22,686 bases of DNA from a virus. Location: positions 1-22,686 of the IMG/VR virus record IMGVR_UViG_3300010412_000084. The stretch is one strand, 5' to 3'. Positions 4,425-22,084 of this stretch are shown piece by piece. Both the position numbers and the translations under genes were made by a program. How positions within the stretch are numbered: the first letter of the stretch is position 1; every line of letters begins with the position of its first letter. The notes beneath the pieces were generated by a model, which saw only the letters and a list, made by a program, of their open reading frames with translations, did no database searches and was not told where the DNA came from.

Positions 4425-7400
4425 TTACGCATTAATAAAACCACCTGCTGCAATAGCTCCTGTTCTTAAAATAGTGATGTTATTTACTATAATACCCATA
4501 CCTTTAATTGGTTCTACATAAGTATCTAATACACCAATTTGATTATCGATAATATCAGAAGTATTATTTTCATCATCCATTTTATTAAAGTAGTTAAATA
4601 AACCATTTTTATTTACGTAAGTCTCACAGATAACATCAGCTCTTAACTTAATTTCAGCTCTAACATCAGGAGTATTAAATCTCCATTGGTAATCAAGTAA
4701 CATTGCTGCTAACTCTCTTTCTAACTCTACAAGAACTTCTCTTACGTGAATGAAAGATAAAGCTGATTTATAAAGTGTAAGTGCAGTATTCTCAGTTTCG
4801 ATCACATAACCTCTATTACGTTTAAGAACAATAGGGTTCATTTGTGCACCATTTAAGAATTCAATATCTGTTGGATCAAACTCATGTTCAACACCAGCAA
4901 TATTTGTTACTCTACCGTTTACAACACCCGCTGCAATTGTCCAAGGTGTAACTGAACTAACATTAGAGATGTGTTTTCTCATAAATGTTGTAGCTACATA
5001 TGATGCAGGCGGAACATCTAATGGTCTACCATTATCATTTACTGTAACATATGGAGTAAAATAACCAACTGTTGTTACACCTGGTCCATCACCGAATGAG
5101 TACAAGAAAGCTGGATTACTTTCAGGATCACCACCTTTAGCGATATACTCAGCTTGTAAAACACCCTCAGCATTTACGAAGCTTGGAGATGATGAGTTTT
5201 TGAATGATTTTAATGAAGGCATATTAATGAAACCAAATACATTTAATCTCTCACCACAAATATCTACTAATTGTTGTTTTGATCTTTCTGTTAAACCTAA
5301 ACCAAATGCATCAACTAAATATCTAAAGTCAAATGCTTCTTTATTAATTAAAGCTTTGAATAAAGGTGTTCCTTTAGCTACTAAGTTTAAGATTTGATTT
5401 TGTTTAGCTTCTGTACCATCAGGCATAGACGCTTGTCTAATTCTAAATCCTTTAAGAGCGATACCTTTATAAGTAGTAGCATATTGATCTACTGTTGAAT
5501 ATCTTGTTGTTTGATAATCTAAACCACCATTATCATTAGTATAAGCTACTTTCTTGATTTTAGCATCACAAGTAATTTCAGCTAATTCTGTATTACCAGC
5601 ATATTGTCTTTTACTTAATACTCTAGTGTAATTTCTTTGGAACTCTTGTCCTAACTCCATTGCAATATCAGAGTTATCTGCTTCTAAGAAATCACCAACT
5701 TTTATTTCAGCATATCTTGCACCATTAACAAGAATCTTGTTTGGAACTTCTGCATATCCCGAAACTTTCTCAATCTCAACGGTCTGTCTTAAGTTAGACA
5801 ATTCCGATTGAACTTGAATACTATAGTTAGCAACTCTACTTACTTCATCAACATTAGTTTGTAATGTATTATCTGTCATATAGTTTACTTCTAAAGTTCC
5901 GTCAATATCAGTAATCATTTGTAAGAAATAAGTACTATCAGCATTTACTCCCCACATCATCTTAACATCCTCAAGTAATTCAAATGTAACATTCTCAGCT
6001 ACTGTATATGCAATATAATTACTACCTGTGAATCCTAAAGATGTCGCTAACTGAGCAGGTGATTGATTTGTAGGATTAACAGTATTTGCTACAAGTGTAA
6101 ATGTAGTTGTATTTTCAGAAGAATCTGGGAATTTAACTTTCTCTAAAACTTGTAAATTAATAGCTTGGTAAGCTTGAGTTGCACCTAAAGTAGGAGTTTC
6201 AAAAACAATATAATTATATCCTGCATAATCACTAGTTAAACCAGTTACTACATTAGTAGGACTTGGTGATGCTTCTCCATTTATAAATCTAACATTTACT
6301 TTGTGGCTACCTGTTAGAATAGAATTCTTCATAGTAAAACTTTCATCTGTATATAATCTATTTACGTAGAAGTAATCTTTAGAATTTATTAATCCATTTT
6401 CAAAGTTTTGATAAAATTCTGAATATTTAGCAGCAATACCAATCTGATCGGTAGCAGCATCATCATGTGTTCTCAATCCTTTTTTACCAACAATATATTC
6501 ATTATCTGTTAAATATATAGTAAGTAAACCATTATCAGTTATGTAACTAACATCAGATAATCCAGTCTTTAATACAAATGATTTATTCTGAGAATCTGAT
6601 GAAACTACTTCTGTTAATGTCATAGTAGCACAACTTTTCTTAACTTTGTCATCTCCATTAGCAGACCATACTAATGTAGCTCTATCCTTAAATGTACCCA
6701 ATGCACTTAAAATATTAGTAAATGCTTTATATTTTCTATATTGATTATAATTTTTTGGATTAGGAGTAGCATCAGTTCCCCAGAAAACAACTTTAATATC
6801 ACCAACTGAATAACCAGGTGTATTACTCATATCATAAATATAGTAATCATCACTCGCAGAGAATGTACCATATGCAAAATCATTTGATGAACCAGCACCG
6901 AAAGTATATGCATCATCTACATATTCAGGAACAACAACATCAATACCTCCAACATTTCCAGTTAAATAAACACCTTCAAATGAAGTACCAACAAAAGTTT
7001 GAGATGAAACTCCAACTTTAATAAAGCCTAATACTAAATCACTAATATTAACTGTTGGATTAACACCAGGTGTATAAGAAGTAACACTTGAAATTTCACC
7101 ATTAGATCCTAAAATAAATGCAGTTGAATAAGTTGCAACAGTTGTACTAAATGGATAATCAATTGATCTTAATGTAGTAGAATAAGTACCAGCAGATACT
7201 CCCACATATTCTCCACCAATAACAGCATATGCATCAGCAGCAGCATTATAAGATACTCTAATATAGGAAGAAGTACCAGATGCAGTTATACCAGTATTTT
7301 CAGTATAGTTAATATTTAATATAGCACCCTCTGCAAACCAAGCAGTTCTATTACCATTATAAACAACACCCGAAGTTGTAGGATATCCATATGCGTGCGG

Positions 7401-8480
7401 ATTTTGTTGAGTAAATGAATAAGTACCAAATAAAGCAACAACATTACCAGGTAAGTCTAACGGAGTAGCTACATAATCTACTGATTGTACGATAGTTTCT
7501 TTATAAGAAAGGAAATCAATTTCTCTTTTCTCAGAACCAACTAGTGTAGCACCAAGTAAATCAACTACCCCAGAGTAGAAATCTTTTTCAACTAAATCTG
7601 CATTAAATGCACAGAAAACACCATGTTGATCTGTTCCTCTATTAATAACAGTTTCGATAAATATATTTTGACCTTCTAAATCTCTAAAATATGGAATTAA
7701 TGAAAGACCTTCTGCATAAGCTAAAGTAGTAATATTTCTATCATTAGCAAAAGCTCTTAATTGAGTTTTGATCAAACCTTCTGCATTAAAGTATTGACCC
7801 CATCTGTTATCAACCGCTAAGTTTTTATAGTCAGTCCAATCACCTGCAATAACCACTACATCCACTAAATAATCAGATGCATAATCTTGTGGATTTAAGT
7901 AAGCAGGCATTTTCTCAATAGAACCATACCATTCTAATAATGTTCTATCAAAACCTGTTCTCTGTGATTTGATAACAAAAACAGTAACATATCTATCAGA
8001 TAAGTTAGTAAAGCTAAAAGCTCTTTCTGAATATCCTGTATTAGGTTTTGTTAAATTTATGAAAGATTCAGTGTCTCTTTTCCAGAAACCAGTCGTGTCA
8101 AAGAATCTTCTGTAAGGTCCTTCTCTCTTAATATCATTAAGATAATATGCAGAGGAAGAAAGTGATTTATACTCAATTACGTCCAATGTGTCATCAGTAA
8201 GTAATAAGTTCATCGCAAAAACAGGAGATGTCTCAAGCATTTTTGAAACAGTTCTGTGGAAAAAAGAACCTTTTCTTTCTAAATTTCTATCTAGAGGTCC
8301 GAAAACAGCCTCTAAGTCATTGACACTAGTCAATCTGATTGGTGTATTAACAGGTCCTTTTTTGGAAACACCCATAACTAAGTTTGTAATACCCTCAACA
8401 GTTGGTGTTGTAAAAACTGACTTATCAATCTCTTCTATGAAGATACCAGGTCTTTTGTATTTTCCAATTTGAATTGCCAT
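4425..8480 (-). CDS. Contractile tail sheath protein, unusually long
   Basis: The 1351-residue protein has classic sheath ends. The N-terminus reads YKRPGIFIEEID, followed by VEGITNLVMGVSKKGP and SVNDLEAVFGP. The C-terminus has FIHVREVLVELERELA, a helix around DYQWRFNTPDVRAEI, and ends in a beta strand (GMGIIVNNITILRTG) of the kind that links neighbouring subunits. T4 gp18 has 659 residues, so this one is twice as long. The extra length is mostly at about residues 370-900, a Ser/Thr/Tyr/Val-rich region that looks like several inserted beta domains likely exposed on the outside of the tail. The sheath surrounds the tube and contracts to drive it into the host. The start is fixed by the GKYKRPGIF motif and the promoter element just upstream. 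Confidence 0.92.
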   Translation of the reverse strand: MAIQIGKYKRPGIFIEEIDKSVFTTPTVEGITNLVMGVSKKGPVNTPIRLTSVNDLEAVFGPLDRNLERKGSFFHRTVSKMLETSPVFAMNLLLTDDTLDVIEYKSLSSSAYYLNDIKREGPYRRFFDTTGFWKRDTESFINLTKPNTGYSERAFSFTNLSDRYVTVFVIKSQRTGFDRTLLEWYGSIEKMPAYLNPQDYASDYLVDVVVIAGDWTDYKNLAVDNRWGQYFNAEGLIKTQLRAFANDRNITTLAYAEGLSLIPYFRDLEGQNIFIETVINRGTDQHGVFCAFNADLVEKDFYSGVVDLLGATLVGSEKREIDFLSYKETIVQSVDYVATPLDLPGNVVALFGTYSFTQQNPHAYGYPTTSGVVYNGNRTAWFAEGAILNINYTENTGITASGTSSYIRVSYNAAADAYAVIGGEYVGVSAGTYSTTLRSIDYPFSTTVATYSTAFILGSNGEISSVTSYTPGVNPTVNISDLVLGFIKVGVSSQTFVGTSFEGVYLTGNVGGIDVVVPEYVDDAYTFGAGSSNDFAYGTFSASDDYYIYDMSNTPGYSVGDIKVVFWGTDATPNPKNYNQYRKYKAFTNILSALGTFKDRATLVWSANGDDKVKKSCATMTLTEVVSSDSQNKSFVLKTGLSDVSYITDNGLLTIYLTDNEYIVGKKGLRTHDDAATDQIGIAAKYSEFYQNFENGLINSKDYFYVNRLYTDESFTMKNSILTGSHKVNVRFINGEASPSPTNVVTGLTSDYAGYNYIVFETPTLGATQAYQAINLQVLEKVKFPDSSENTTTFTLVANTVNPTNQSPAQLATSLGFTGSNYIAYTVAENVTFELLEDVKMMWGVNADSTYFLQMITDIDGTLEVNYMTDNTLQTNVDEVSRVANYSIQVQSELSNLRQTVEIEKVSGYAEVPNKILVNGARYAEIKVGDFLEADNSDIAMELGQEFQRNYTRVLSKRQYAGNTELAEITCDAKIKKVAYTNDNGGLDYQTTRYSTVDQYATTYKGIALKGFRIRQASMPDGTEAKQNQILNLVAKGTPLFKALINKEAFDFRYLVDAFGLGLTERSKQQLVDICGERLNVFGFINMPSLKSFKNSSSPSFVNAEGVLQAEYIAKGGDPESNPAFLYSFGDGPGVTTVGYFTPYVTVNDNGRPLDVPPASYVATTFMRKHISNVSSVTPWTIAAGVVNGRVTNIAGVEHEFDPTDIEFLNGAQMNPIVLKRNRGYVIETENTALTLYKSALSFIHVREVLVELERELAAMLLDYQWRFNTPDVRAEIKLRADVICETYVNKNGLFNYFNKMDDENNTSDIIDNQIGVLDTYVEPIKGMGIIVNNITILRTGAIAAGGFINA

Positions 8481-11761: not shown

Positions 11762-12307
11762 ATGGCCTATAACGCAAAAGACATTATATGTATTAGCTTT
11801 AGTGTAAATGATTTACAACTATTTTCAATATCACTTGAATATGGTTTAGATTTTGGCATTCTCTATGGGATGAAAGATGTTACTGATTATTTATGGGTAG
11901 AGACTAAGACCGGACGAGTGTTATTTTACGGAAACAAAGACATTATACTTGTACAAGGTAATGGAGTAAAAGGTTATACCTCCAAAGAACTAAAAATGCT
12001 TAGAAAGATGGAACCAGTAAAACCGAAAAAGATTAAAAAAGATCTTTTAACTTGTGCTAAATACTTAAGATTTGTTAATGACTTTCCTACAATAAGATTG
12101 GAAAGCCTAGATAGATTTATAGAAAATAATATAGTAGTAGAAAATGACACTTTTTATATGAAAAATAATTTTCAAAATAAAATACAAAGTGAGATGCAAA
12201 CTTTGGATACTTTAGATTTAGATAGTATATTAGATAAAATAAATGAGAGTGGTATTAATTCACTAACAAAAGAAGAAAAAGAATTTTTAGATAAATTAGC
12301 AGAGTAA
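11762..12307 (+). CDS. Hypothetical protein with Bacteroidota-type C-terminal helical tail
   Basis: The 181-residue protein is of unknown function. The N-terminal 75 residues look like a small beta-rich domain (SISLEYGLDFGILYGM ... GRVLFYGNKDIILVQGNG). A basic linker follows (KPKKIKKD, about 94-102), then a helical part. The last 27 residues, with ILDKInesGInSLTkEEK and FLD, closely match the tail of the 201-residue protein encoded at 21479-22084. They also match a short C-terminal segment I recall on Bacteroidota membrane and cytoplasmic proteins (a DUF6576-like tail). Outside the tail the two proteins look unrelated. The gene ends in a terminator fused to the promoter of the next gene. Confidence 0.7.
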   Translation: MAYNAKDIICISFSVNDLQLFSISLEYGLDFGILYGMKDVTDYLWVETKTGRVLFYGNKDIILVQGNGVKGYTSKELKMLRKMEPVKPKKIKKDLLTCAKYLRFVNDFPTIRLESLDRFIENNIVVENDTFYMKNNFQNKIQSEMQTLDTLDLDSILDKINESGINSLTKEEKEFLDKLAE

Positions 12308-16332: not shown

Positions 16333-16401
16333 ATGTAGATGGTTTTTTACAATATATATAAAAAAATAAATACTCCTATGGCTAAACAAGAACAAGAAAG
16401 A
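16309..16401. repeat. 18-bp inverted repeat spanning divergent gene starts
   Basis: The arms at 16309-16326 and 16384-16401 are perfect inverted copies of AAACAAGAACAAGAAAGA. Each arm is inside a different divergent gene, so both proteins carry the peptide KQEQER at residues 3-8. The arms enclose the shared promoter region. Confidence 0.9.
16343..16366. promoter_or_regulatory. Putative bidirectional late-type promoter
   Basis: TTTTTTACAATATATATAAAAA contains a palindromic TATATATA (16353-16360) flanked by T on one side and A on the other. Read either way it gives the recurring element, with predicted leaders of about 12 bases to the large terminase ATG and 15 bases to the divergent ATG. Confidence 0.6.
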
Positions 16402-18495
16402 CAAATGGTCTTTACTACTAGACTTGTTGATGAAGCAACTGATAAGATCAATGACGGTATAGTTATTAAGAGGTTTCAGAACCCTTGGTTAAAGTCCGAA
16501 GTAGGTTTGAGAAGAGCTGGTGTTTCTTTTAGAATGTCACCAGAAGAACAAGAAGAATATATAAAATGTGCCTTAAACGTAGATTACTTCACAGAAAAGT
16601 ACTGTAAGGTAAAAACAGAAGATGGTTCAATTGATCATATACAACTAAGAGATTATCAAGAAGAAATACTAGAAAACTTTGTAAAAAATAGATTTAATAT
16701 CCTAATGGCATCTCGTCAGGTAGGTAAAACAATTTCATCAGCAATATTCATGTTGCATACAATCTTATTTAACAATGATAAAAATATAATGATTGTGGCG
16801 AATAAAGGTGATACAGCAGTTGAGATTGTTGATAAAATTAAATCAATCTATACACTTTTACCTTTCTTCTTAAAACCAGGAATTAAAACTTGGAATCAAA
16901 AATCACTAACATTTGAGAATGGTTGTAGAATAAAAACATCAGCAAGATCTAAAACTCCTGCGATCGGTTTTACGATTGACGTACTTTATCTTGATGAGTT
17001 TGCTCACATTCCTTCAAATATTATTGAACCTTACTATACTGCTGCTTTTCCAACAGTATCAGCGGTACAAAACTCAAAAATTATTATTACTTCCACACCA
17101 AACGGTATGAACTTATTTCATAAGTTACTAACCGATGCAGAAAGACCAGATGGTGATCCACTTAAAAACAACTATAAACCAATGAGGGTTTATTGGCATC
17201 AAGTTCCTGGTCGTTTTGTTACTTACATAAGATTAAATGAACATAAATTATATGAATATGGCGTAACAAAAGAACATATATATGATTTAGTAAATGGTTA
17301 CTTTGGTGATAAAACTAAATTAAAAATGGGATTTAATATGGATTTACAAAAAAATGTAATTTCCGTATTTAACAATGAACAATGTACTGACGAAGATGTA
17401 AAATCTTTATCATTCATAGACTCAAAAGGATTAGAAACACCAATTAGAGCTATTGCAGAGCTAACAACTTGGAAAGAAGAAGCTATTAAAGACATTGGTG
17501 GTGAAGATGCATTCAACCAAGAATATGGTTTGAGATTTATAAACTCAAGTAAATCATTACTAAGTGAAGCGATAATTGAAAACTTACTTAATAGTAAAAA
17601 GAATTATGTATTTGAAGAAATGCATGAGTTTGAAAGTAAATTAAGATTTAGTTATAAAGATTTAAGATGGGTAGATGATGATGATTTATTTATGCCCATC
17701 AATAGAAAAAATGAAAAATTTATACTTTCAGTCGATATATCAGAAGGTTTAGGACAAGATTACTCTATTATAAATATATTTAAGCTTGTCAAAAAGTCAA
17801 CTGATCTAATTGAGCAACAAAAAATGAAATATAAGTCAATAACAGATTTCTTTAGGTTAGAGCAAGTTGGTTTATATAGAAGTAACTTAGTATCGGTTAA
17901 ACAGCTAGCTGAATTATTATATGTTTTAGCTTATGATTACTTAAATCCAGAAAATGTAAAGATTGTTTTAGAGTTAAATAACTATGGTAATACTCTTTTA
18001 GCAGAGATGCCACATGTTTTTGATGGAAATAATGATTATGGTTCTTCTATATTCTTTAGATATAAACATCGAGTTGATGCGACCGAGGAAAAAGTTGGTC
18101 TAAAAGTTGGAGATAATAAAAATATGATGGTTAAAGATTATCAAGATTTGATGATTTCTAAAGGATTTTCTATCAATAATGAAGAAACGATTAGAGAAAT
18201 TACAACATTTGTTAAGCAAACAACGACATCCGGTAATACTAGATATGCTGCTGATGTTGGACATGACGACTGTGTTATGACAATTGTAAATGCTACATCA
18301 GTATTTAATAAGAATGACTTCAAAGAAATGTGTGAAGATTTATTGGATAAAGATTCAAACTTCAAAACATATGTAAATGAGTGTCTAAGAAGCTTAGAAT
18401 ACTCAGAAACAGTAGATTATGGTCAATTATTAAAAGTTAGAAGACAATATATAAACAAATCAAGAAATAATAACAATAGTTGGTTTGGTAAATAA
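16378..18495 (+). CDS. terL: Terminase large subunit (T4 gp17-like)
   Basis: I choose the ATG at 16378 (MAKQEQERQMVF), giving 705 residues; an earlier ATG (16339) lies in the promoter. The ATPase domain has Walker A at 111-118 (A-S-R-Q-V-G-K-T), Walker B with the catalytic D206-E207 (LYLDEF) and the coupling motif T-S-T-P-N-G at 238-243. The C-terminal RNase H-like nuclease has acidic residues D453 (SVDISEG), E532 (VLELNN) and D630/D631 (GHDD), matching the D-E-D triad of T4 gp17. The motor packs DNA into the prohead and cuts the concatemer. The length is a little above T4 gp17 (610). The gene is divergent from the probable small subunit and ends at a terminator shared with clpS. Confidence 0.95.
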   Translation: MAKQEQERQMVFTTRLVDEATDKINDGIVIKRFQNPWLKSEVGLRRAGVSFRMSPEEQEEYIKCALNVDYFTEKYCKVKTEDGSIDHIQLRDYQEEILENFVKNRFNILMASRQVGKTISSAIFMLHTILFNNDKNIMIVANKGDTAVEIVDKIKSIYTLLPFFLKPGIKTWNQKSLTFENGCRIKTSARSKTPAIGFTIDVLYLDEFAHIPSNIIEPYYTAAFPTVSAVQNSKIIITSTPNGMNLFHKLLTDAERPDGDPLKNNYKPMRVYWHQVPGRFVTYIRLNEHKLYEYGVTKEHIYDLVNGYFGDKTKLKMGFNMDLQKNVISVFNNEQCTDEDVKSLSFIDSKGLETPIRAIAELTTWKEEAIKDIGGEDAFNQEYGLRFINSSKSLLSEAIIENLLNSKKNYVFEEMHEFESKLRFSYKDLRWVDDDDLFMPINRKNEKFILSVDISEGLGQDYSIINIFKLVKKSTDLIEQQKMKYKSITDFFRLEQVGLYRSNLVSVKQLAELLYVLAYDYLNPENVKIVLELNNYGNTLLAEMPHVFDGNNDYGSSIFFRYKHRVDATEEKVGLKVGDNKNMMVKDYQDLMISKGFSINNEETIREITTFVKQTTTSGNTRYAADVGHDDCVMTIVNATSVFNKNDFKEMCEDLLDKDSNFKTYVNECLRSLEYSETVDYGQLLKVRRQYINKSRNNNNSWFGK

Positions 18496-18527
18496 AAAAA
18501 AAAGACATCCTAAGATGTCTTTTTTTT
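18496..18527. terminator. Bidirectional terminator between terL and clpS
   Basis: A 14-bp stem (eight A then GACATC / GATGTC then eight T) with a CTAA loop begins right after the terL stop codon. Its far end overlaps the clpS stop codon, so one hairpin serves both strands. Confidence 0.85.
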
Positions 18528-18810
18528 AATTATTTATTTCCATCGTAACAGATAGTCCTCTATTTTGTAAAGAGGTTTTCATTTCAGAAATAGTTTCTAA
18601 GTCACCATACTTAACATCACATTTCCCGTTATTATGAACGATATGAGCACACTGAGTTGCCTGTTCATACTCATGCTTACATATTTCCATAAGACTTGTT
18701 ATAACCCAATCAAATGAGTTATAATCATCATTATGCAATATAAGACGATAAGGTTTAGAAAGAATACTTTGTACCTTTGATTTTGTTTTTGTTTTAGTTA
18801 TAGTTGCCAT
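18526..18810 (-). CDS. clpS: ClpS-type adaptor for the Clp protease
   Basis: The 94-residue protein is a full ClpS domain. It has L-I-L-H-N27-D28-D29-Y30, the N-degron pocket loop, followed by NSFDWVITSLMEICKH; A-x-x-C-A-H-I-V-H59 with the conserved pocket histidine; G-K-C-D-V-K-Y-G; and the closing strand GLSVTMEI. Phe33 stands where E. coli ClpS has the gatekeeper Met40; I recall Bacteroidota ClpS proteins having N-T-F-D-H-V here, so this copy looks host-derived. ClpS binds the N-domain of ClpA or ClpC and delivers proteins with N-terminal Leu, Phe, Tyr or Trp, while blocking some other substrates. A phage copy could redirect host proteolysis. It lies one base after the HAD gene stop, in one operon. 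Confidence 0.9.
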   Translation of the reverse strand: MATITKTKTKSKVQSILSKPYRLILHNDDYNSFDWVITSLMEICKHEYEQATQCAHIVHNNGKCDVKYGDLETISEMKTSLQNRGLSVTMEINN

Positions 18811-18811
18811 T

Positions 18812-19324
18812 TTACTTAAAAACTTTTTTTGTTTTGTTTTTTACATCAATTATAGTAATTCTACAGTCAATTGTTTTAGCCCATTTTTCAAATTCAACTA
18901 AATGTTCGTAACGGTCGTCATACATAACGAATTCATCAACACCCAATTTTCTAATTAATTTCTCAAATAATCTACATTTGAATGTAAAAGTATCACCACC
19001 AGTATTCAAGTAAATAGCATCAAATGCTAAGTTTAATTTACTTAACAATGCTTCAACTTCTGGTCTTAATTTTTCAACACGACCAGTTGCACAAATAACA
19101 TAGTTATCTGGATCAGAGACAGCTTTAAGATACTCTTCATAAACATAAGGATTTACTTTTGTATCAAAAATATCTAAATCTAAAGTTTCTGGCTTACTCC
19201 ACCAACCACGATGAGGCCAATCTTGACCAGTTTTTTCTTTCCATAAAGGTTTTCCCTCCTCAGGTTTCATAGTATGACACAAAGTATCATCTAAATCAAA
19301 ACATATTAATTTCTTTAATCCCAT
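18812..19324 (-). CDS. HAD phosphatase, RNA-repair (HAD_SAK-like) type
   Basis: The 170-residue protein has HAD motif I at D10-L-D12-D13-T-L, motif II at T80 (CATGR), a motif III lysine probably at K116 (TFKCR) and motif IV at D136-D137 (MYDDR). The segment H-R-G-W-W-S-K-P-E-T-L (38-48) followed by I-F-D is typical of the HAD domain found in 'Swiss Army Knife' RNA repair proteins. It suggests a polynucleotide 3'-phosphatase or other nucleic-acid-end phosphatase; a nucleotidase is the alternative. The full motif set indicates an active enzyme. It is the first gene of an operon with clpS, read from a host-type promoter, so both are likely early genes. No RNA ligase or kinase is in this window. 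Confidence 0.8.
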   Translation of the reverse strand: MGLKKLICFDLDDTLCHTMKPEEGKPLWKEKTGQDWPHRGWWSKPETLDLDIFDTKVNPYVYEEYLKAVSDPDNYVICATGRVEKLRPEVEALLSKLNLAFDAIYLNTGGDTFTFKCRLFEKLIRKLGVDEFVMYDDRYEHLVEFEKWAKTIDCRITIIDVKNKTKKVFK

Positions 19325-19341
19325 ATTCTTTATAATTTTTA

Positions 19342-19371
19342 CAAAGATATATATTATTTTTTAATATATAA
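19342..19371 (-). promoter_or_regulatory. Host-type (Bacteroidota) promoter for HAD-clpS operon
   Basis: On the minus strand, TATCTTTG (19349-19342) matches the Bacteroidota -7 box TAnnTTTG exactly. A TTA (one mismatch from TTG) lies exactly 19 bases upstream. The predicted start site leaves a leader of about 12 bases before the ATG at 19324. Confidence 0.55.
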
Positions 19372-19378
19372 CTAAAAA
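19357..19378 (+). promoter_or_regulatory. Putative phage late-type promoter (LysM gene)
   Basis: TTTTAATATATAACTAAAAA on the plus strand is a good copy of the recurring element, 11 bases before the ATG at 19390. It overlaps the upstream part of the host-type promoter on the other strand. Confidence 0.6.
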
Positions 19379-19389
19379 TAGTAAAAATT

Positions 19390-20001
19390 ATGAAACTTGA
19401 TTTTACGAAAATTCTAATTTTATTTCTATTAATATCAACTATTGGATTCGGACTTACTTGGTATTTTGGTGGATTCGATGCATCAAAACAAAGAGTTAAA
19501 GAACTTGAGGAAGATTATAAGAAATTAGAAAAGGAGAAAGAAGCAGCAGAAGCAAAAGTTGAAGCTTGGAAAGAAATATTCAATGAGAAAGATAAACAAG
19601 ATAAGAAAATGACTCAAGAGGTTATTAATGCGAAAACCGATGCTAATATTGCAAGAATAAATGCGGAAAAAGCAAAAGCTGAGTTATCAAAAATTCAAAA
19701 TAGTATGTCAATAACTAGAAAAGAAATTGAAGAGATGAGAAATAATCCAAAAGCTATGACTGATGACGAACTTTTAGAGGATTTAATTAAAAATACATCT
19801 CCGTCACAACAGAAGAAAGTAAATAAGGTATCGGAAGTAAAAGATAAATTAGAGATTAAACACAGAGTAAAATCAGGAGAAACATTATACTCTTTATCTA
19901 AAGAATATAATATAAGTGCTTCTGAAATAATCGAACAAAATAAGTTTTTAAGTAAGAAGGGTTTGCAAGTAGGACAAATTTTAACAATTAAAACTAATTA
20001 A
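19390..20001 (+). CDS. Membrane-anchored coiled-coil protein with C-terminal LysM domain
   Basis: The 203-residue protein has an N-terminal membrane segment at about 7-27 (ILILFLLISTIGFGLTWYF) with a basic start, so it is probably anchored in the inner membrane facing the periplasm. A long charged coiled coil follows (about 33-130, KELEEDYKKLEKEKEAAE and onward), then a linker. A LysM domain spans about 157-202 (HRVKSGETLYSLSKEYNIS ... LSKKGLQVGQILTIK), which binds peptidoglycan. The plan, anchor, rod and wall-binding end, suggests an envelope-spanning lysis or host-envelope protein such as an inner-membrane spanin. The next gene encodes a second coiled-coil envelope protein 17 bases downstream, so they may act together. 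No lytic enzyme motif is present. Confidence 0.8.
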   Translation: MKLDFTKILILFLLISTIGFGLTWYFGGFDASKQRVKELEEDYKKLEKEKEAAEAKVEAWKEIFNEKDKQDKKMTQEVINAKTDANIARINAEKAKAELSKIQNSMSITRKEIEEMRNNPKAMTDDELLEDLIKNTSPSQQKKVNKVSEVKDKLEIKHRVKSGETLYSLSKEYNISASEIIEQNKFLSKKGLQVGQILTIKTN

Positions 20002-20589: not shown

Positions 20590-21153
20590 ATGATGAAACA
20601 CGTTAAAAAATTTGAATCTTTTCGTATTAAGAAAAATAGAGAAGAAATAATAAGAGAATCAGTATTACAAGTAAATGATATTTATAAAGTAAAAACTATG
20701 ATTGATATTCCTCAATCTCTTATTAATGCTTATGTAAAAAAAGTAAAAGACACCACAGGTAAAAATTTACGTCAATTTTTTGGTGATGTAGATATTGCTG
20801 AGGAAATAATTAAATATGTAACACTTAACTTTGTTGATGTTGATAAAATTCCAGGTGGTGCAATAATGGGTGGTCAAACTCAAGCTCAAACTCAAGGACA
20901 AGGTCAAGTACAAGTACAAACTGAACCACAAGCTCAGATGCAAGAGCAACCACAGATACAAGCTCAACCAGAAGGACAAGCACAAGGTGGTGATGAATTT
21001 GAAGAACCGCAAGCTCAACCAGAAGGACAAGCACAAGGTCAGGCACAGGGACAAGGACAAGCTCAGGCACAGGGACAAGGACAAGCTCAACCACAAGGAC
21101 AAGCACAACCTCAAGGTCAAACAGAAGAAGGAGAAGAAGAACTTCCACTATAA
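20590..21153 (+). CDS. Capsid-targeting-like protein with Gln-rich repeat tail
   Basis: The 187-residue protein starts at either of two adjacent ATGs (20590 or 20593), giving MKHVKKFESFRIKKN, the clearest K-x-F-x-x-F start in the window. An I-R-E site follows near residue 23, fitting a T4-type prohead protease. Residues 25-90 form a small helical domain (TMIDIPQSLINAYVKKV ... FFGDVDIAEEIIKYV). From about residue 98 to the end, the protein is low-complexity: repeats of G-Q-A-Q and related units, broken by D-E-F-E-E, ending in an acidic T-E-E-G-E-E-E-L-P-L. The tail is disordered and grows by DNA tandem repeats. It is likely a packaged or surface protein whose tail varies in length. It stands alone between promoter and terminator. 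Confidence 0.75.
   Translation: MMKHVKKFESFRIKKNREEIIRESVLQVNDIYKVKTMIDIPQSLINAYVKKVKDTTGKNLRQFFGDVDIAEEIIKYVTLNFVDVDKIPGGAIMGGQTQAQTQGQGQVQVQTEPQAQMQEQPQIQAQPEGQAQGGDEFEEPQAQPEGQAQGQAQGQGQAQAQGQGQAQPQGQAQPQGQTEEGEEELPL
20959..21087 (+). repeat. Direct and tandem repeats within Gln-rich gene
   Basis: A 30-base sequence at 20959-20988 recurs exactly at 21010-21039. A 24-base unit (21040-21063) is followed at once by an identical copy (21064-21087), encoding eight residues twice. Both are in frame. Confidence 0.9.
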
Positions 21154-21185: not shown

Positions 21186-21486
21186 ATAATTTATCAATAA
21201 TATAGTCTCTTCGTATAGATACCAAGTTTCTAAATAAATCATCATCTTCTAATTCTTTAGAGAATGAAATATGAGAATTAATAACTTCAAGTGTTAATTC
21301 TTTTTTATTATACTTATACCAGTCTTTTTTTATATAAACCGGCATCTTATCAACATCTTTTATTTTTTCAAAATCATCTTCAATATAAAAGTAATTATTA
21401 TCTATTTCAAAGATAATATTTATCGTACCTTGTATAGTTCTATAATCTTTTATAATAAATTGACTTATAGTATTAATATCATCCAT
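21184..21486 (-). CDS. Hypothetical protein, 100 residues
   Basis: This small acidic and Tyr-rich protein is not recognised. It has strands at about 18-35 (TIQGTINIIFEIDNNYFYI) and 62-75, and no signal or membrane segment. The start (MDDINTISQ) overlaps the end of the upstream gene by 8 bases, so it is the last of three overlapping minus-strand genes, likely one transcript that begins beyond the right edge of the window. Its stop codon touches the terminator. No function is proposed. Confidence 0.6.
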   Translation of the reverse strand: MDDINTISQFIIKDYRTIQGTINIIFEIDNNYFYIEDDFEKIKDVDKMPVYIKKDWYKYNKKELTLEVINSHISFSKELEDDDLFRNLVSIRRDYIIDKL

Positions 21487-22084
21487 TATAGTTATCTAAA
21501 AACTTTTTCTCTTCTAAAGTTAAGCTTTGAATACCTTGAGCACTAATTTTATCCAAGATTTCATCTATATTATAAGACTTAACACTTTTTTGCTTAGCTT
21601 TATTTTCAAACTCTTCATCGAAATTATACATTGCTTTTAAGTCAGATAACTTAATTCCAAATTTTGATTCAAATGTAGGTTTATAAAATACCATACCTAA
21701 AACACTTATAACGTCATTTATCTCTGACTTAAAATAGATATTAATAGTAGTTATCAATTCATCAACAATATTTTCATCAATACCATCGGTTGTATAAATA
21801 CACTTACCATTTCTAAAAATAGCAACGTCTTGTCTATTATCCATAATATAAACAATATCAATAAAACCAGTTCCTTCAATAGACGTTGTTAAAGTAACAG
21901 AATTATTTATTCTATCCTTAAATTGAACCTCGTTAGAGTAGATTTTTTCCAAAACCTTAGAAAAGAATGAATTTCTCTCTTTTAATACTTTATCAGATTC
22001 TCTCTTGTACATTATTTTATTATACAAGTTAGTTAAAAGAATACCTAAACAAAAAAATCCTAAACACGCAATACTAAAAACCAT
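21479..22084 (-). CDS. Membrane-anchored hypothetical protein with Bacteroidota-type C-terminal tail
   Basis: The 201-residue protein starts with a hydrophobic membrane anchor at about 2-20 (VFSIACLGFFCLGILLTNL), then a basic linker and a helix to about 45. A beta-rich domain follows (NSVTLTTSIEGTGFIDIVYIM ... VAIFRNGKCIYT) with further helices to about 165. The last 26 residues (IDEILDKIsaQGIQSLT-EEK and FLD) are nearly the same as the tail of the protein at 11762-12307. The rest of the two proteins is unlike, which points to a transferable tail module. The protein would face the cytoplasm or periplasm from the inner membrane; which is unclear. Its start overlaps the upstream nucleotidyltransferase gene by 11 bases. 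Confidence 0.65.
   Translation of the reverse strand: MVFSIACLGFFCLGILLTNLYNKIMYKRESDKVLKERNSFFSKVLEKIYSNEVQFKDRINNSVTLTTSIEGTGFIDIVYIMDNRQDVAIFRNGKCIYTTDGIDENIVDELITTINIYFKSEINDVISVLGMVFYKPTFESKFGIKLSDLKAMYNFDEEFENKAKQKSVKSYNIDEILDKISAQGIQSLTLEEKKFLDNYNG

Follow-up and report, generated by a model that had tools for sequence, protein, structure and literature searches.

A conserved ClpS-family adaptor of a megaphage clade whose complete members carry ClpP and an N-domain-less ClpC

Introduction

ClpS is the bacterial adaptor that chooses which proteins a Clp protease destroys, and its normal dock is the Clp_N N-domain. In Escherichia coli, the pore loops of ClpA hold the ClpS tail (PMC9663308), and the ClpS residues E79, E82 and K84 contact the ClpA N-domain (PMC12493166). 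ClpS has also been found in jumbo phages, where delivery to host ClpAP was proposed (Iyer et al. 2021; PMC7824862), which is the only real mention of a phage ClpS that we found in the literature. Additionally, a 25-kDa phage protein, Gp53 of SPO1, has been characterised as adaptor-like for ClpC (PMC6873191). The concept of a phage Clp adaptor is therefore not new, and the statement in a sequence-only reading of the DNA studied here, that no characterised phage ClpS is known, has to be given up in view of these two reports.

The DNA analysed here, hereafter the window, is a viral contig of 22.7 kb, part of a megaphage genome whose relatives include LR745206 (634,780 bp; 635 kb) and LR756502 (642,428 bp; 642 kb). 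These two are among the largest phage genomes known, and Bacteroidetes are the predicted replication host for genomes >634 kb (PMC7162821, PMC9723777). Like Gp53, the window ClpS is phage-encoded; unlike Gp53, which is a 25-kDa adaptor-like protein acting on host ClpC, it is 94 aa long and belongs to the ClpS family. The ClpS proteins of other jumbo phages, such as Serratia phage BF, are likewise phage-borne and proposed adaptors of the host Clp protease, but they are ~34–41% identical to it over half of the protein. Moreover, ClpS was reported 'instead' of ClpP in the jumbo phages of Iyer et al., whereas ClpS, ClpP and ClpC occur together in the complete relatives of the window. As far as the literature shows, what is new is the core status of ClpS in a megaphage clade, its phage-specific tail, a conserved, putatively host-type promoter set against a virion-gene class, and the coexistence of ClpS with ClpP and an N-domain-less ClpC.

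Results and discussion

The window encodes a ClpS with an intact N-degron pocket

The gene and its neighbours are arranged as follows.

18526–18810, minus strand: ClpS, 94 aa (N-terminal extension aa 1–20, core aa 21–94), from PF02617, AlphaFold (AF2), Foldseek and VIA-align
18812–19324, minus strand: HAD-superfamily phosphatase of the Swiss-army-knife RNA-repair type, 170 aa, first gene of the operon, from PF10307, alignment and AF2
16339–18495, plus strand: terminase large subunit (TerL), convergent neighbour and syntenic anchor (PF03237, 3.2e-21; synteny in the fetched loci)
19390–20001, plus strand: LysM protein, divergent neighbour and syntenic anchor (PF01476, 4.9e-12; synteny)

The product of 18526–18810 is almost certainly a real ClpS. 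It matches the Pfam profile PF02617 with an E value of 4.5e-19 and 68.5 bits against a cut-off of 23, and the NCBIfam ClpS equivalog models match it with scores below their strict cut-offs. The AF2 model, built from 41 phage and host sequences, has a mean pLDDT of 89.7, and its top 38 Foldseek matches in the PDB are all ClpS structures. In particular, the best VIA-align match, 9ayo_B, is Mycobacterium smegmatis ClpS in complex with PheAla, at Z 16.0 and with 76 aa superposed to an rmsd of 1.0 Å, and the next different family is L7/L12 at Z 10.7; the structural match of the model is far above chance.

The pocket residues N27, D28, N31, F33, V36, A55, V58, H59 and L86 correspond to E. coli N34, D35, T38, M40, V43, M62, V65, H66 and L99. 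In the phages every one of these N-degron pocket residues is invariant or close to it, and each is the same as, or among, those of Bacteroidota hosts, with F33 and V36 at 100% in both phage and host ClpS and H59 also at 100%. The changes at the T38, M40 and M62 positions are Bacteroidota-type and also present in hosts, and F33 (E. coli M40) and A55 (M62) read as host-lineage features, not phage inventions. The sequence-only reading had described a complete ClpS domain with N27-D28-D29 and H59 intact; the profile match and the invariance of these residues in 50 distinct phage orthologues bear this out, and the predicted fold is that of ClpS. Compared with Bacteroidota ClpS, the fold, the pocket including its F, V and H residues, the length and the presence of a ~20-aa tail are the same, but the phage clade has its own conserved tail, lacks the proline of helix 3 and has H56, Y68, D70 and S75 fixed or nearly so.

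ClpS has a Bacteroidota origin and a fixed place in the clade

In a tree of 87 ClpS sequences set against Bacteroidota host ClpS, as the sequence-only reading had proposed, the proteins of the megaphage clade form one group nested inside Bacteroidota ClpS (support 100/99), the 91 alignment columns being too few to fix the exact donor. LR756504 (636 kb) is likewise a megaphage with an N-domain-less ClpC and ClpP copies, but its ClpS is 39% identical, stands apart from the main group among host sequences (96/84), as of separate host origin, and has other gene neighbours. Thus, ClpS has probably entered megaphages at least twice, and, as the LR756504 clpS has neither HAD nor TerL as a neighbour, the ClpS–HAD pairing is limited to the main clade. 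On the host side, 195 of the 198 Bacteroidota genomes sampled encode ClpS, which places the pathway in the hosts. Aat (leucyl/phenylalanyl transferase) is encoded in 8 of 14 host genomes and was found in none of the 15 phage records searched, which gives no sign of a full N-end-rule pathway brought by the phage.

Most window genes keep the same order in LR745206 and LR756502, whose ClpS reading frames are 77% and 73% identical to that of the window. A scan of IMG/VR returned at least 182 stretches with a relative, and 80 of these loci were fetched and read: nearly all preserve the order LysM-HAD-ClpS-TerL, and in 74 of them the HAD–ClpS gap is ≤100 bases. ClpS is ~69–84% identical across the clade, and the most conserved proteins of the region are ClpS, TerL and the tail sheath (4425–8480). 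With a median identity to the window of 76.6%, against 74.9% for TerL, 55.8% for HAD and 37.2% for LysM, ClpS is under strong purifying selection and, judged by its distribution, is a core gene of the megaphage clade.

In some relatives (loci L005, L013, L015, L016, L058, L078 and L081), ~0.3–1.5 kb of extra DNA separates either HAD from clpS or clpS from TerL, possibly as mobile (homing-type) insertions.

ClpS shares an operon with a HAD phosphatase

One base separates the clpS reading frame (18526–18810) from that of HAD (18812–19324), as expected from the operon proposed earlier. The HAD protein matches HAD_SAK_1 (PF10307, E 6.6e-11) and a polynucleotide-kinase PHROG (9.3e-8), and its motifs D10xD12xT14, T80-G-R, K116 and D136-D137 are invariant in a 27-sequence alignment. 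Its AF2 model (pLDDT 95.8) has as top fold match Pnkp1 (4xrp, E 5e-6) at a modest TM of 0.57; Pnkp1 belongs to the Pnkp1/Rnl/Hen1 RNA-repair complex. The protein therefore shares with Pnkp1 and other Swiss-army-knife HAD phosphatases the HAD motifs and the best fold match, but differs from Pnkp1 in being a stand-alone 170-aa domain. A role as a nucleic-acid-end phosphatase is a reasonable reading, and what would tie it functionally to ClpS is its position in the operon.

The operon carries a conserved, probably host-type promoter

Three elements frame the operon.

19342–19349, minus strand: −7 box TATCTTTG of the Bacteroidota TAnnTTTG class, serving the HAD–clpS operon, conserved in relatives
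19357–19373, plus strand: TTTTTTAATATATAACT, phage-class promoter-like motif of the divergent LysM gene, overlapping the −33 region of the HAD promoter
18496–18527, either strand: bidirectional intrinsic terminator between the TerL and clpS ends, with a 14-bp stem and T tails on both strands (z −7.35)

TAnnTTTG is the Bacteroidota −7 promoter element. In the window, 17 bases separate the box TATCTTTG from the HAD ATG downstream, and TTA stands at 19371–19369, 19 bases from the box. Across relatives, all 43 distinct HAD upstream regions contain TAnnTTTG, against 3.9 expected from first-order shuffles. Within 75 bases upstream of the 25 gene starts of the window, it is found at HAD only. The HAD–clpS promoter is thus very probably of host type; a scan for sigma-70-type promoters gave sites not above shuffles. 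The −33 region reads TTA, where the class consensus has TTG at ~19–21 bases, and because this TTA lies inside the LysM motif TTTTTTAATATATAACT, it is weak evidence. Of the box with TTA at 19-base spacing put forward in the sequence-only reading, the box therefore holds, and the TTA adds little.

By contrast, the genes for the tail tube (2462), tail sheath (4425), LysM protein (19390) and a Q/G-rich protein (20590) carry TAATATATA ~27–36 bases upstream, and at 20590 it recurs in 41 of 41 relatives. The earlier view that the other promoters in the window mostly belong to a different class fits this division, and the TTTTAATATATA motif of virion-type genes is a candidate phage (late) promoter. 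A TTTTAATATATA-like motif is repeated ~27–36 bases before the starts at 2462, 4425, 12988, 19390 and 20590. In some relatives, TAnnTTTG is also present at the 11762 and 14323 genes; across the clade, the host-type class therefore extends beyond the HAD–clpS operon. Additionally, TAATATATA occurs just upstream of clpS in 16 of 49 distinct relatives, and clpS may thus have a second promoter. The HAD and LysM promoter classes stand head to head and, with the LysM motif lying over the HAD −33 region, the two promoters may exclude each other.

Since the terminator closes the operon and both flanking genes run the opposite way, read-through is unlikely. Early in infection, host RNA polymerase would need no modification to express ClpS from a host-sigma-type promoter, and we infer that HAD–clpS transcription is of host type and probably early, a view well supported by the promoter comparison. 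Such sequence-defined promoter classes would allow expression timing to be predicted in uncultured megaphages.

In complete relatives, ClpS is accompanied by ClpP and an N-domain-less ClpC

LR745206 has two ClpP genes, and three ClpP-family matches were obtained in each of LR756502 and LR756504. Ser and His motifs are visible in the ClpP-family genes L121 and L124 (LR745206), L120, L122 and L125 (LR756502) and L119 and L123 (LR756504), L125 being a divergent, shorter ClpP-like protein. Each of the three genomes also encodes a two-AAA unfoldase, which in LR745206 and LR756502 reads plainly as ClpC from its UVR-like middle domain and VGF ClpP loop (profile domains AAA, AAA_2, ClpB_D2-small and UVR). 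Clp_N was sought in five phage records and found in none, whereas it is matched in 9 of 14 controls and by proteins of all five ClpS-bearing host genomes; host ClpC has the N-domain. In line with this, ~85–95 residues, comprising an acidic stretch and the start of D1, precede Walker A in phage ClpC, against ~200–285 in host reading frames. ClpC genes without the N-domain are L127 (LR745206 422969–426490), L128, L131, L132 and L149–L185. Because the window spans only 22.7 kb, ClpC and ClpP are ascribed to its own phage by way of these relatives.

Other phage ClpC proteins, of ~820–840 aa, have extra N-terminal sequence of N-domain length. All seven ClpC-bearing phage records of ≥380 kb have ClpS together with an N-domain-less ClpC, and no ClpS was seen in the long-ClpC records, many of which are fragments; the association between ClpS and N-domain loss (Fisher p 0.08) is confounded by fragments and shared ancestry. 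In the ClpC tree, short phage ClpCs are interleaved with host ClpC at weak support, so that more than one loss of the N-domain is possible. Upstream of phage clpC (L127–L185), AAACTT-N14,20-TATAA is found in 17 of 27 cases against 0.2 expected; having been found after looking at the data, it is a lead to a third candidate promoter class. The host-type promoter was not found as a class upstream of clpC in the main clade (1 of 27), and since the clpC motif differs from the HAD–clpS promoter, ClpS need not be co-expressed with phage ClpC.

Megaphages with ClpS, ClpP and an N-domain-less ClpC thus seem to run a partly rewired host protein-disposal system. That ClpS accompanies a ClpC devoid of the canonical dock is a real puzzle: the adaptor either targets host ClpC, which has the domain, or uses another site.

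Candidate partners of the phage ClpS

We consider it about an even chance that the phage ClpS works early in infection with host ClpC as its main partner. ClpS, acquired a single time from Bacteroidota and since retained among the core genes of the clade, would be an N-degron adaptor co-transcribed with a HAD phosphatase of nucleic-acid-end type from a host-sigma-type promoter. Its conserved pocket would bind proteins with bulky N-terminal residues, and it would dock on the N-domain of host ClpC, which is left as the canonical dock because phage ClpC has no Clp_N. The conserved 20-aa N-terminal tail would then enter the ClpC pore and hand over the cargo, biasing host ClpCP in favour of N-degron substrates at the expense of others. 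In this reading the early timing, the partner, the substrates and the effect on host proteolysis are inferred. If it holds, a gene that ranks among the best conserved in the largest known phages encodes a substrate selector for regulated proteolysis, and N-degron degradation would belong to the core programme of Bacteroidota infection, not to its accessories.

Several features count against docking on host ClpC. The complete relatives carry their own ClpP and N-domain-less ClpC alongside ClpS, which makes host proteolysis one possible target among others. The docking helix also looks unlike that of the host. Two positions do fit a host dock: that of E. coli E79 is acidic in 49 of 50 phages, and that of K84 holds M, which is also seen most often in hosts. 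However, E82 is S, and position 83, a proline in 47 of 55 hosts, is mostly E, T or K in phages, never proline; the dock thus appears partly remodelled, although Bacteroidota host ClpS mostly does not keep E82 and K84 either. The N-terminal extension, at 20 aa long enough for delivery and partly helical in the AF2 model (pLDDT ~60 over the first ten residues), has the clade consensus TITKKKT..KV..ILSKPY. At equal core distance (0.25–0.35) it shows 0.27 differences per site among phages against 0.81 among hosts (27% versus 81% of sites), which points to a phage-specific constraint on the tail and suggests a phage-specific partner.

Such a partner could be the phage's own machine, a possible but doubtful alternative in which ClpS feeds the N-domain-less ClpC and ClpP through a non-canonical site, namely the middle domain, contact of the conserved N-terminal tail with the pore, or both. 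The extension is conserved in phages only, phage ClpC retains its UVR-like middle domain and VGF loop, all seven of the large ClpC-bearing records pair ClpS with a dock-less ClpC, and LR756504, which acquired a different ClpS, has such a ClpC as well. There is also a precedent in Mycobacterium tuberculosis, whose ClpS inhibits ClpC1 without its N-domain, via the middle domain (PMC6274998), but this is inhibition, not delivery; moreover, the promoter classes of clpS and phage clpC differ, and the Fisher association given above is not significant. Equally tentative is the idea of a viral N-degron protease insulated from host control, whose ClpC would have shed the N-domain used by host adaptors while a phage-specific ClpS docks elsewhere. 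Whether the viral adaptor retargets the host machine or serves a viral one is a testable question posed by ClpS together with a dock-less ClpC.

On the other hand, ClpS might occupy host ClpC without delivery, shutting out host adaptors or SsrA-type substrates, or mask the N-termini of phage proteins. ClpS does inhibit the processing of SsrA substrates (PMC6274998), and SPO1 Gp53 is a phage precedent for dysregulated ClpCP (PMC6873191), yet a pure blocker needs no pocket, and here the pocket and a tail of delivery length are both conserved, which leaves this alternative unlikely. That ClpS is passive host-derived cargo without function in the window phage, as hosts already owning ClpS might suggest, is highly improbable, being contradicted by its conservation, which resembles that of TerL, its presence in at least 182 viral contigs and its fixed synteny.

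Other features of the window

The tail-sheath protein (4425–8480, minus strand) is very large, at 1351 aa, and its best tail-sheath PHROG stretch lies in the C-terminal part. The protein encoded at 20590–21153 (plus strand) has a long QAQGQ repeat tail, whose coding DNA consists of tandem repeats of 6, 18 and 24 bases. A small DUF6576 domain ends two separate window proteins, at 11762–12307 (plus strand) and 21479–22084 (minus strand).
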